Shown here piece after piece: positions 52,748 to 57,054 of a stretch of DNA of 64,000 nt. Location of the stretch: assembly GCA_001950395.1 (NCBI GenBank), contig BDLO01000001.1:1153979-1217978 (forward strand), given 5' to 3'. Below the pieces are notes generated by a model. It made no database searches. It was not told the origin of the DNA and saw only the letters and a program-made list of their open reading frames with translations. The stretch's first letter is position 1. Every line of letters begins with the position of its first letter. Both the position numbers and the translations under genes were made by a program. Origin of the DNA: Coriobacteriaceae bacterium EMTCatB1. Lineage in GTDB: Bacteria > Actinomycetota > Coriobacteriia > Anaerosomatales > Anaerosomataceae.

Positions 52748-54190
52748 ATGCGCGACATCGCCCTGGCAGCGCTGGACGCTGCCACGCTTGCTGGCGCTTC
52801 GTACGCCGACGCCCGCGTCGTGTTCGAACGCTCCGAGACCGTCTCGGTGCGCACGGGGCGCGTCGATGCGATCGGCTCGAGCGAGACCCTCGGACTGGGC
52901 GTTCGGGTGATCGCGGACGGCGCGTGGGGGTTCGCAGCCACGGCCGACCTCTCGCCCGACGCGATACGCCTGGCCGCGCGGGAAGCGGTCGCGCTCGCTC
53001 GCGCGGCCGCTCGGACGTGGAGCGCGCCGGTGCGGCTCTCCGACGCGCCCATTGTCACCGACGAGTGGCGCGCGCCGTGCGAGATCGATCCGTTCTCGGT
53101 GCCGCTGGACGAGAAGGTCGCCCTTCTGCTCGCCGCCGACGAGGCCATGCGCGCCGAGCCGCTGGTTTCCGTGACGGCCGGCTCGCTCGACGCGTGGTCT
53201 GTAAGCAAGGTCTTCGCGTCCACGGAGGGCTCCCTCATCGAGCAGTCGCACACCGAGGTCGGCGCAGGCATCGAGGCGATCGCCGTCACCGACGGCGAGG
53301 TGCTCACGCGCTCCTACCCCAACTCGCACGGCGGCCAGACCGTGCAGGCAGGCTGGGAGGCCGTGCTGGCGCTCGACCTCGTCGGCCACGCGCCGCGGAT
53401 CGCCGAGCAGGCAGCCGCTCTCACGCGCGCCATCCCCTGCCCCAGCACGACCACCACCGTCATCCTCGACGGCAGCCAGATGGCGCTGCAGGTCCACGAG
53501 TCCATCGGGCACCCGACCGAGCTCGATCGCGTGCTCGGCGACGAGGCCGCGTTCGCGGGCACCTCGTGGGTGCGCGCCTCCGGCCTCGGCACGCTCAGGT
53601 ACGGCTCCGAGCGCCTCAACGTCGTCGCCGACGCCACCACGCCGGGCTCGATCGGCAGCTTCGGCTACGACGACGAGGGCGTGCCCGCGCAGCGCTTCGA
53701 CGTCGTGCGAGGCGGCGTGCTCGCAGGCTTCCTCTCATCGCGCGAGTCGGCCGTGGCGATCGGCCGGTCGAGCACCGGCTGCGCGCGAGCCAGCGGCTGG
53801 GACCGCATCCCGCTCGTGCGGATGACGACGGTGTCGCTCGAGCCCGGCGAGTGGGACCTCGACGACCTCATCGCCGACACCCGCGAGGGCATCTACATGG
53901 AGACGAACAGCTCCTGGTCCATCGACGACAAGCGGCTGAACTTCCAGTTCGCGTGCGAGATCGGCTGGGAGATCAAGGACGGCAAGCTCGGCCGCATGAT
54001 CAAGAACCCGAACTACACCGGCATCACGCCGCAGTTCTGGAGCTCGCTCGACGCCGTGTGCTCCCCGAGGCACTGGCAGGTGTGGGGCGTGCCGAACTGC
54101 GGCAAGGGCGAGCCGATGCAAGTCGCGCACGTGGCGCACGGCGCTGCGCCCGCGCGCTTCCGCAACGTGCAGGTGGGGGTGGCGCGATGA
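52748..54190 (+). CDS. tldD: TldD metalloprotease subunit
   Basis: This 480-residue protein carries the zinc motif HESIGH (HExxxH) near residue 251, followed by TELDRVLGDEAAFAGTSW in outline, and the C-terminal GGKGEP-like region reads NCGKGEPMQ. TldD with TldE forms a filament-lined heterodimer which degrades unfolded peptides or trims modified peptides. The start is ATG 52748 with GAGAGGGG upstream. It overlaps tldE by 4 nt. Confidence 0.92.
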   Translation: MRDIALAALDAATLAGASYADARVVFERSETVSVRTGRVDAIGSSETLGLGVRVIADGAWGFAATADLSPDAIRLAAREAVALARAAARTWSAPVRLSDAPIVTDEWRAPCEIDPFSVPLDEKVALLLAADEAMRAEPLVSVTAGSLDAWSVSKVFASTEGSLIEQSHTEVGAGIEAIAVTDGEVLTRSYPNSHGGQTVQAGWEAVLALDLVGHAPRIAEQAAALTRAIPCPSTTTTVILDGSQMALQVHESIGHPTELDRVLGDEAAFAGTSWVRASGLGTLRYGSERLNVVADATTPGSIGSFGYDDEGVPAQRFDVVRGGVLAGFLSSRESAVAIGRSSTGCARASGWDRIPLVRMTTVSLEPGEWDLDDLIADTREGIYMETNSSWSIDDKRLNFQFACEIGWEIKDGKLGRMIKNPNYTGITPQFWSSLDAVCSPRHWQVWGVPNCGKGEPMQVAHVAHGAAPARFRNVQVGVAR

Positions 54191-55530
54191 GCATGCACGA
54201 GACGGCTGCCGAGATCGCCGAGCGGACGCTTGCGCTCGCGCGCGGCGACGAGGTCGAGGTGCTCGCCTCGGTGGAGCGCTCGGCGCTCACGCGCTTCGCC
54301 AACAACCGCATCCACCAGAACGTCGCGGAGCGCTCCGCGGGTGTGTCGGTGCGCGTCGTCGTCGGGACGCGCCAGGGTTGCGCCGCCACCGACCGCGTCG
54401 ACGAGGAGTCGCTCGAGCGCTGCTGCGAGCGAGCCCGCGAGGCCGCGCTGCGCGCGCCCGAGGACCCCTCGTTCCCGGGGCTGCCTGAGCCCTCGGAGGC
54501 GGCTGCCGCGCCCGCTCGCCCGCTCCCGGATCCTGACGCGTTCGGCCCAGACGCCCGCGCGGAGGCTGCCGCCGCCATCATCGCGCAGTCCGCCGAGCGC
54601 GGCCTTACCGCTGCCGGCACGGTCTCGGTGCGTGCGGCCGGCATCGCGGTTGCGAACTCACGCGGCGTCCGCTTAGCCGCCACGACGGGCGCCGCGCGCG
54701 CCACCGTGCTCTCGATGCACGCAAGCGGCGCGAGCGGCTGGGCGTCCTGGCTCGGGACCGACCCCGCCGAGCTCGCCGCCGACTCCCTCGGCGATCGCGC
54801 CGCGCTGCTCGCAGAGCGCTCGGTGGGCGCCGAGCCGCTCGAGCCGGGCTCGTACCCGGTCGTCCTCGCGCCCGACGCCGTCGCGGATCTGCTCGACTTC
54901 CTCGGCTACACCTCGTTCGGCGCCCGCGCCTACTTCGAGCGCTCGTCCTTCGTCGCGCTGCACGAAGGCGAGCGGCTCTTCCCCGAGACGCTCACGATCG
55001 TCGACGACGCGCTCAGCCCCGAAGCCGTCGGACTGCCGTTCGACTTCGAGGGGGTGCCGAAGCACCGGGTGGCGCTCGTCGAGCGCGGAGTGCCCGCTGG
55101 CGTCGTCACCGACTCGTACTGGGCGGCGAAGCTCGCTCGCACGAACACCGGCCACGCGCTCCCCGCGCCGAACCCGTGGGGGCCGATGCCGCTCGACCTC
55201 GCCATCGAGCCGGGCGACGCCACCGTCGACGAGATGATCGCCGCCGTCGAGCGCGGCGTGTACGTCACGCGCTTCCACTACGTGAACGTCGAGGACCCCG
55301 CAACCGTGCTGCTCACCGGCATGACACGCGACGGCACCTTCCTCATCGAGGACGGCCGGCTCTCGCGCCCGCTTGCCAACGCGCGGTTCACGCAAAGCGT
55401 CGTCGAGGCGCTCAAGGGGCTTCAGGCGATCGGCCGCACCCGCGAGCTCGTCGGCACCGAGGACGGCGGCGCCTGCCTTGCGCCAGCGCTCGCGCTCGCG
55501 TCTTGGCAGTTCACCGGCCAGACGGGTTAG
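54187..55530 (+). CDS. tldE: TldE/PmbA metalloprotease partner subunit
   Basis: This 447-residue TldD/PmbA family member has no HExxxH, as expected for the E subunit. ANNRIHQNVAERS near the N-terminus and TGHALPAPNPWGP, DEMIAAVERGVYVT and GTFLIEDGRLSRP in the C-terminal half are family stretches. ATG 54187 overlaps the tldD stop (ATGA). Its TAG stop (55528-55530) overlaps the stop of an atpD remnant on the other strand. Confidence 0.9.
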   Translation: MSMHETAAEIAERTLALARGDEVEVLASVERSALTRFANNRIHQNVAERSAGVSVRVVVGTRQGCAATDRVDEESLERCCERAREAALRAPEDPSFPGLPEPSEAAAAPARPLPDPDAFGPDARAEAAAAIIAQSAERGLTAAGTVSVRAAGIAVANSRGVRLAATTGAARATVLSMHASGASGWASWLGTDPAELAADSLGDRAALLAERSVGAEPLEPGSYPVVLAPDAVADLLDFLGYTSFGARAYFERSSFVALHEGERLFPETLTIVDDALSPEAVGLPFDFEGVPKHRVALVERGVPAGVVTDSYWAAKLARTNTGHALPAPNPWGPMPLDLAIEPGDATVDEMIAAVERGVYVTRFHYVNVEDPATVLLTGMTRDGTFLIEDGRLSRPLANARFTQSVVEALKGLQAIGRTRELVGTEDGGACLAPALALASWQFTGQTG

Positions 55531-55582
55531 CCGGCGTCAGCAGCGGCGTCCTCTGCTGCGCGCTGCTGCTCGAGCATGTCCT
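55527..55582 (-). pseudogene. displaced 3' end of an atpD (V-ATPase subunit D) gene
   Basis: On the minus strand QDMLEQQRAAEDAAADAG and a TAA stop are read. The first half repeats the C-terminus of the intact subunit D (KDMLEQQRAEEQRSAE), but after RA the two tails differ. The TAA overlaps the tldE stop, a compact convergent arrangement that looks original. It lies on the far side of the mntA-hepT pair, so it is probably the old 3' end of atpD cut off by an insertion. Confidence 0.6.
55558..55582. repeat. direct repeat, outer copy (25 bp)
   Basis: GCGCGCTGCTGCTCGAGCAT followed by GTCCT is identical to 56429-56453, 871 bp away. On the minus strand it encodes the conserved end of subunit D. 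It bounds the mntA-hepT cassette on its left. Confidence 0.8.
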
Positions 55583-55649
55583 GCGTGTGATCGACTGCCA
55601 GCGCCCTTCGGTCCGGCCTTGGTGCGTGGTCACCCGTTAGATGCTAAGG
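55583..55649. other. short spacer inside the cassette
   Basis: No gene seen. The sequence follows the outer direct repeat and precedes the hepT stop; AGCGCCCTTCGG and GGCCTTGGTG segments could form weak hairpins only. Confidence 0.3.
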
Positions 55650-56012
55650 TCAGGACGATTCGCCGACCTCGCCCAGTGCCCGCATCAGGTCAGCGCACTC
55701 GTCGCGCAGCACGGGCACATCTCGCTTCGCGATGCCCCAAACGATAACGTCGCTGACATTGGGGTACTCGTGGGTGAGCCGGTTGCGGAAATCGACGATA
55801 CGACGCGCATGGGAGATCGAGACGAATAGGTCGGGCGCAATCCGCGACAGCGCCGCAGCGGCTTCGCCGATGATGATGAACTCCCGCTCGACAGAAGAGC
55901 GCACGAGCCTGTTGGCTTTGTACGCGTCCAAGTCGAGCCCCTCAAGCGCGTACGCGATCGCGTCGCAACTTTCGAGGATGTCAGCTAGGTATGCGCGCGC
56001 GTCACGCGGCAT
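55650..56012 (-). CDS. hepT: HepT-like HEPN ribonuclease toxin (DUF86)
   Basis: This 120-residue all-alpha protein carries the HEPN motif RNRLTHEY at residues 76-83, giving R-x4-H-x-Y. The tyrosine is the residue AMPylated by MntA in characterised pairs. HepT cleaves RNA (tRNA in the studied case) unless modified. It overlaps mntA by 11 nt at its start and is translated after it. Confidence 0.88.
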   Translation of the reverse strand: MPRDARAYLADILESCDAIAYALEGLDLDAYKANRLVRSSVEREFIIIGEAAAALSRIAPDLFVSISHARRIVDFRNRLTHEYPNVSDVIVWGIAKRDVPVLRDECADLMRALGEVGESS

Positions 56013-56310
56013 ACATCAACCGCCTCGTACGTTCGATGTCGGCGGCGATGTAGCGGTTCTTTACCGCATCCGCCATCACAAGGTCGACGGGCGAATCAAG
56101 GATCCGCTCAAGCTCCGCAAGCAGGCCGAAGTACGCATCGACGAGCTCGAACGGCGACATGTCCTCGAACTCGACGAGCAGATCGATGTCGCTCGCGTGT
56201 AACGAGAAGTCGTCCCGAAGCGCAGAGCCGAACACGTACATGCGGGCGACCTTGAATCGGCGGCATGCCTCAGTTATCGCTTGCTTCTTCTCCTGGAGAA
56301 TGCTTGCCAC
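56002..56310 (-). CDS. mntA: MntA-like minimal nucleotidyltransferase antitoxin
   Basis: This 102-residue nucleotidyltransferase has FGSALRDDF followed by SDIDLLVEF: the GS at 28-29 and D41-x-D43 form the metal and NTP site, with 11 residues between S and D (usually 10). It transfers AMP to HepT to silence it. The start is GTG 56310 with GAGGAGGAG upstream. The cassette lies downstream of atpD in the same direction. Confidence 0.88.
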   Translation of the reverse strand: MASILQEKKQAITEACRRFKVARMYVFGSALRDDFSLHASDIDLLVEFEDMSPFELVDAYFGLLAELERILDSPVDLVMADAVKNRYIAADIERTRRLMYAA

Positions 56311-56347
56311 TGCGCTCCTCCTCTCGCATCCATCGTACCCGCGAGAG

Positions 56348-56366
56348 GCAGGCTCCGCCAGCCTGC
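56348..56366 (-). terminator. hairpin between atpD and mntA
   Basis: GCAGGCT (56348-56354), loop CCGCC and AGCCTGC (56360-56366) form a 7-bp stem about 40 nt after the atpD stop. There is no T-run. It may separate ATPase transcription from the mntA-hepT pair. Confidence 0.45.
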
Positions 56367-56403
56367 TTACGAGGCGAGGCGTCGAATGGAGTCTGAGGAA
56401 CTC

Positions 56404-57054
56404 CTACTCCGCGCTCCTTTGCTCCTCCGCGCGCTGCTGCTCGAGCATGTCCTTCACCTTCATGAGCCGCGTGAGGTTGCCTCGCTCGGCCTCGTCCAGC
56501 TTCATCTGCACGCTCTTGATCGTCTCGACGATCGAGGGTATGAGCACGTGCTCGAGCGCGTTCACGCGCCGACGCGTGCGCTCGATCTCGGCGGCCAGAA
56601 GCTCGATCGCCTTCTCGCGCTGCGCGAGCTCGATCATGAGCGGAAGCGTCTCGGCGAGCGCTTCGAGCGCCTCGTCGAGCACCGCTGGCATCGTGCCGAG
56701 CGAGTAGCCGCCCGGCTGCGGGATCTCCCCCGCCTCGATCTCTGGCACGCGCACGCTCATCACGTTGCGCTCTGCAGTCGTCACGAGGTCGGCCGGCTCG
56801 CCAGCGAGCAGCGCCTGCGCCAAGTCGGTGCGCCCTGCTTCCGCGCGCGCCACCGCGAGCAGCGCGTACGCGTGCGAGAGCCGCGCCTCGACCTCGCGGC
56901 GAAGCCGACGGCTGTCCGAGATGCGCGCCAAGAACTCCTTCAGAAGCTCGTCGAACTTGTCCTTGAGAAGCTTGTGGCCGCGCTTGGCGACGTCGCGCCT
57001 GCGCTTGAGCTTGAGCAGCTCCATGCGGTTGGGGTTCACGCGAAGGACAGACAT
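56404..57054 (-). CDS. atpD: V/A-type ATPase subunit D
   Basis: This 216-residue coiled-coil rotor stalk subunit has NPNRMELLKLKRRRDVAKRGHKLLKDK in outline at the N-terminus, the classic subunit D start, and a long helical C-terminus ending KDMLEQQRAEEQRSAE. It sits last in the operon. The C-terminal 25 nt (56429-56453) are repeated at 55558-55582. The residues after RA may derive from the inserted cassette. Confidence 0.92.
   Translation of the reverse strand: MSVLRVNPNRMELLKLKRRRDVAKRGHKLLKDKFDELLKEFLARISDSRRLRREVEARLSHAYALLAVARAEAGRTDLAQALLAGEPADLVTTAERNVMSVRVPEIEAGEIPQPGGYSLGTMPAVLDEALEALAETLPLMIELAQREKAIELLAAEIERTRRRVNALEHVLIPSIVETIKSVQMKLDEAERGNLTRLMKVKDMLEQQRAEEQRSAE
56429..56453. repeat. 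direct repeat, inner copy (25 bp) within atpD
   Basis: Identical to 55558-55582. It codes for the KDMLEQQRA region of subunit D. The flanking bases differ on both sides, so the identity ends sharply at 25 bp. Confidence 0.8.

Follow-up and report, generated by a model that had tools for sequence, protein, structure and literature searches.

How did a small toxin–antitoxin cassette, mntA-hepT, come to lie between two copies of the 3' end of atpD, a housekeeping gene, in the genome of Coriobacteriaceae bacterium EMTCatB1? The original prediction for this locus was a site-specific insertion into the end of atpD that restores the gene. We examined the 64,000-nt stretch of DNA that contains the locus (hereafter the window), together with the complete 1.84-Mb genome and a comparison set of 27 genomes of the family, four of them in the window's genus. 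The features of the locus are collected in Table 1.

Table 1. Features between tldE and atpD, in window coordinates
Feature	Position	Strand	Evidence and remarks
tldE, TldD/PmbA-family metalloprotease	54187..55530	+	PF19289 and PF01523; stop TAG 55528-55530; convergent with atpD
Remnant tail of former atpD end (A-E-D-A-A-A-D-A-G, TAA), severed from the gene	55527..55557	-	Homologous to G001 atpD tail
Outer copy of the 25-bp atpD sequence	55558..55582	-	Repeat comparison
Inferred illegitimate junction, occupied allele (hepT spacer) / empty allele (atpD end)	55582..55583		atpD similarity stops abruptly on the hepT side; spacer without counterpart in G002
67-nt spacer 3' of hepT	55583..55649	-	No relative found; no stem-loop beyond chance
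hepT, HEPN RNase toxin (by family)	55650..56012	-	PF01934, E 7.6e-17; RX4HXY intact (R76..H81.Y83)
mntA, minimal nucleotidyltransferase antitoxin (by family)	56002..56310	-	PF01909, E 2.2e-13; PDB 1wot; GTG start
atpD-mntA intergenic region	56311..56403	-	Common to G002
Present atpD tail (E-E-Q-R-S-A-E, TAG), G002-type end	56404..56428	-	Tail alignment
Inner 25-bp copy, within atpD	56429..56453	-	Repeat comparison
atpD, V/A-type ATPase subunit D, intact	56404..57054	-	PF01813, E 4.7e-55

The repeat is direct and perfect over 25 bp (GCGCGCTGCTGCTCGAGCATGTCCT, at 55558-55582 and 56429-56453) and extends to 32 bp at 91%. It codes for the ..DMLEQQR of V/A-ATPase subunit D, and its second copy is therefore not a matter of chance. 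Read on the minus strand, the outer copy continues as RAAEDAAADAG to a TAA (55529-55527) that overlaps the tldE stop (55528-55530), and the inner copy continues as RAEEQRSAE, followed by a TAG stop. With up to three mismatches allowed, the 25-mer matched the complete genome at these two places only; two congeners, G001 and G003, each had a single site, at the atpD end, and a third, G002, had the atpD-end site and one chance match with three mismatches. The pair is also the only exact direct repeat of at least 20 bp (spacing 0.1–8 kb) in the window, and a survey of a further 400 kb of the genome, sampled as twenty 20-kb stretches, found such repeats in two of the stretches. The repeat, its coordinates, the outer tail with its overlapping TAA and the lack of a visible recombinase between the copies, where mntA and hepT are the only genes, had all been described correctly in the original prediction, and the many chance occurrences that it had named as grounds for its own rejection were not found in the genome. 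Its '871-bp cassette' holds as the repeat period, measured from start to start, but the DNA between the two copies amounts to 846 bp.

The cassette itself encodes a PF01934 HEPN protein beside a PF01909 MNT protein in genes that overlap by 11 nt (56002-56012), an arrangement that matches HepT/MntA (HEPN-MNT) type VII toxin–antitoxin systems and bears out the gene identities first proposed. In systems of this type, HepT carries RX4HXY and MntA carries GSX10DXD (PMC7641770). The HepT motif is present here as R76-NRLT-H81-E-Y83 and is conserved in G002 and in a relative from G015. In contrast, MntA departs from the described motif: GSALRDDFSLHASDID reads as GSX11DXD, with the catalytic letters present at a spacing one residue longer, as in G002 and the G015 relative, and both proteins fall below the NCBIfam equivalog cut-offs. 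By these features mntA-hepT is a divergent HEPN-MNT pair, a member of a common type of system, and the locus gives no hint of a new function; its putative action, by family, would be that of an RNase toxin silenced by AMPylation. Two short inverted repeats, CTCTCGC..GCGAGAG and GCAGGCT..AGCCTGC, were seen by eye in the alignment 5' of mntA (window 56311-56360), the first of them also kept in G002, and may serve atpD or mntA as a regulatory element or terminator. G023 (L073:372-5000) has an mntA-hepT pair with 68% identity, in which hepT carries an in-frame stop. This pair lies immediately upstream of an integron integrase that is frameshifted and, apparently, followed by several toxin–antitoxin cassettes.

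We then compared the atpD/tldE junction among relatives. The two genes are convergent in many genomes of the family, and this order is probably ancestral. In G001, which lacks mntA-hepT, atpD ends MLEQQRTAEDAAADAG and its stop overlaps that of tldE, so that the empty site is the joined site expected without the insert. This agrees almost to the letter, including the overlap, with the atpD end that had been predicted for a cassette-free relative, and it supports the proposal that the outer copy marks the original end of the gene. The pair is missing from G003 as well, where atpD ends RAAAEGSQDA and some 20 nt separate the atpD and tldE stops. In G002, mntA-hepT occupies the same position, HepT is 88% identical in amino acids to that of the window, and both the atpD tail (RAEEQGSAG) and the intergenic region resemble those now present in the window; this occupied locus has neither the 25-bp repeat nor the outer remnant. 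Among the loci seen, no family genome besides the window's and G002 has the pair at this site. The genus comparison gave the tree ((window,G001),(G002,G003)). A second, divergent V/A-type ATPase, with a subunit D about 35% identical and its own atpB, is encoded elsewhere (G000:C1:29119-29763) and occurs in most genomes of the family.

Alignment of the sequences that follow QQR separated two kinds of atpD end. The inner tail of the window and the intergenic DNA behind it correspond to those of G002 and the outer tail to that of G001, with strong homology in both comparisons (none of 2000 shuffles was as good), whereas the inner and outer tails of the window do not match each other (p 0.63). The tail and downstream DNA of G003 are related to those of G002 (p about 0.001) and weakly related to the inner ones of the window (p about 0.04). 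Because the present tail is homologous to that of G002, which has no repeat, and related to that of G003, which has no pair, it has the appearance of an alternative atpD end native to the genus and not of a piece of a mobile element; for the same reasons, the comparison does not support the idea that the cassette carried in a replacement tail. Judged by its sequence, the stretch 55527-55582 is what remains of an atpD end of the G001 type. Of the six bases at which this remnant and the G001 tail differ, five fall at third codon positions (binomial p about 0.02), suggesting that the remnant was still coding in the recent past.

On the other side of the pair, the similarity between the window and G002 extends from atpD as far as the hepT stop and no further. 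The 67-nt spacer adjoins the outer 25-bp copy abruptly; nothing significant is shared between it and the right-hand spacer of G002 (about 120 nt), in which a search for the remnant returned as its best local alignment 26 nt at the spacer end (p 0.26). Across the family, the 67-nt spacer found chance-level short matches only, the best of them (in G009) within an unrelated long open frame, and a donor allele with this spacer was not found in the genomes compared. The whole structure can thus be described by a single illegitimate joint, at 55582/55583, where an occupied allele meets an empty one. By their site patterns, both flanks of the insert group the window with G001, a grouping favoured across the region, with no imported tract seen in atpD or tldE; the first informative atpD site, 56455, lies 2 bp outside the repeat. 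As atpD is G001-like from that site onwards, either little or no foreign atpD would have been brought in or the occupied allele was already resident. Between the window and G002, dS was 0.45 for mntA and 0.68 for hepT (values in the order given for the pair), against 0.21–0.57 for core genes. Values were similar for all pairs and gave no resolution for dating; since the divergence of the pair is about that of the core genes, the data do not support recent transfer from the lineage of G002, and the donor could be an unsampled congener.

The structure is chimeric, its genes are intact and both alleles occur in congeners. We consider it probable that the locus arose by recombination of an occupied with an empty allele, the two being joined illegitimately at the hepT spacer. 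One parent, exemplified by G002, would have carried atpD with an EEQ-SA- tail followed by mntA-hepT, and the other, exemplified by G001, atpD with an AEDAAADAG tail overlapping tldE. DNA of the occupied allele ending 67 nt past hepT would have been joined to the start of the conserved 25 bp of the empty allele, so that atpD stayed intact with one of the tails while the other was left stranded next to tldE. A congeneric fragment was probably taken up and then either recombined homologously at one end while joining illegitimately at the other, or was closed into a circle by end-joining and integrated by a single crossover within the 25 bp; in neither case would a dedicated recombinase be needed, and mntA-hepT would be a passenger. 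The route of recombination and the identity of the resident allele are what we infer from the finished structure. In homology-facilitated illegitimate recombination, an established route, a fragment is anchored by homology at one of its ends while the other joins illegitimately, usually with deletions, whereas linear fragments that circularise and integrate by a single crossover leave duplications instead (PMC3240628). Homology to the target is present at one side of the insert, the atpD end, as expected of a product of the former process, and the duplication left by circularised fragments (PMC3240628) matches the atpD case well. A crossover within 25–32 bp is short for homologous recombination and counts against the recombinant reading, which rests on four genomes of the genus. 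The core-like divergence of mntA and hepT also weighs against it, as does the failure to find, in the genomes compared, a donor allele against which a short microhomology at the joint would be visible.

The pair might instead have been present in the ancestor of the genus and have passed vertically to the window lineage and to G002, with losses in G001 and G003; an empty-type tldE/atpD end would then have recombined in later, or the empty site of G001 would be the product of excision between the 25-bp copies. Core-like divergence of mntA and hepT is what such descent would leave, the tree permits one gain and two losses, and recombination between the two copies would yield exactly the structure of G001. 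However, this history needs the extra losses, and two different atpD tails in tandem still require an import or an illegitimate joint. The coding-like substitutions between the remnant and G001 and the absence of any detectable similarity between the window and G002 in their right-hand spacers also speak against it, and we regard it as unlikely, though with a real chance of being correct.

A site-specific event that placed a minimal cassette in the 3' end of atpD, with the 25 bp as attachment site, a replacement tail on board and a recombinase acting in trans, appears improbable. It would account for the perfect identity of the 25 bp, the restored atpD, the predicted empty site in G001 and the G001-like atpD almost to the edge of the repeat, and the genome does have tyrosine recombinases, including a true integron integrase, as well as an island at tRNA-Pro flanked by a 27-bp repeat. 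Against it, G002 has the same pair and tail in the same place without repeat or remnant, G003 has a related tail without the pair, and the insert holds no recombinase gene. A flanking repeat longer than 14 bp was absent from all 41 further hepT loci in the class, and apart from G002 no other mntA-hepT pair was found at atpD. Neither the 25-mer in the viral contigs searched nor a relative of hepT in the phage records searched could be detected. A scan for attC sites (RYYYAAC ... GTTRRRY, palindromic, after a gene) found none at mntA-hepT while detecting sites in the integron of the same genome, which served as positive control; GTTAGATGC (55636-55644) is similar to an attC end, yet has neither partner nor fold. 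What stands of the original prediction of an insertion that restores atpD is therefore the old gene end at the outer copy and the empty site, and not the site-specificity or the cassette-borne tail. The boldest form of the site-specific reading, an 871-bp toxin–antitoxin circle without a recombinase of its own, which a host tyrosine recombinase would move in trans into and out of the atpD 3' end at the 25 bp and which would always supply a working atpD tail, strikes us as very improbable. An insertion by transposition or of the integron type, with 25 bp of target duplicated, would explain the direct repeat flanking the insert but has a negligible chance of being right; the insert has no transposase and no attC, no terminal inverted repeats were reported for its ends, and a target duplication cannot explain why it starts with a homologous alternative atpD tail common to G002.

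The integron of this genome is chromosomal, with its integrase at G000:C1:1726649-1727590 (L144:11634-12593; TIGR02249, 470 bits) and, found by a simple scan, attC-like sites (GCCTAAC...CGTTAGGC) between the small genes after it (L144:13600-19670). An integron integrase scored over the cut-off in 22 of the 27 family genomes, G001 not among them, and the literature naming both integron and Coriobacteriia yielded incidental mentions only. The apparent island at tRNA-Pro(ggg) measures 7.5 kb (L134:4731-12306; G000:C1:724731-732306), is bounded by a repeat that copies 27 bp from the tRNA 3' end and carries two P-type metal-ATPase-like genes, with an integrase fragment near the tRNA; it shows what a classical island event looks like in this very genome. 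The atpD locus shares with such integrative islands a direct repeat of about 25 bp derived from a gene 3' end and a gene that remains whole. Unlike them, its insert has no integrase and is only 846 bp long, and the second occupied genome, G002, has no repeat.

Close parallels are the effector–immunity arrays of the Vibrio type VI secretion system and orphaned Rhs 3' ends, where homology-facilitated illegitimate recombination is proposed to have left old 3' ends behind a newly inserted module (PMC5361080). As in those scars, a conserved flank would anchor the incoming module and the displaced old 3' end lies downstream of the new one; unlike in those scars, the host gene here is that of a housekeeping ATPase subunit whose product is kept intact, only 25–56 bp of the old end are left, and the locus shows a duplication and not a deletion. 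The best explanation is that the locus is a new example of a known process, largely an ordinary recombination scar and not a new mobile element. It also serves as a warning against taking a gene-end repeat on either side of a small cassette, by itself, as evidence of site-specific integration. With both parental alleles surviving in sister species and a scar that is short and fresh, the locus would offer a readable case of how a toxin–antitoxin pair can lodge beside a housekeeping gene without a mobile element.
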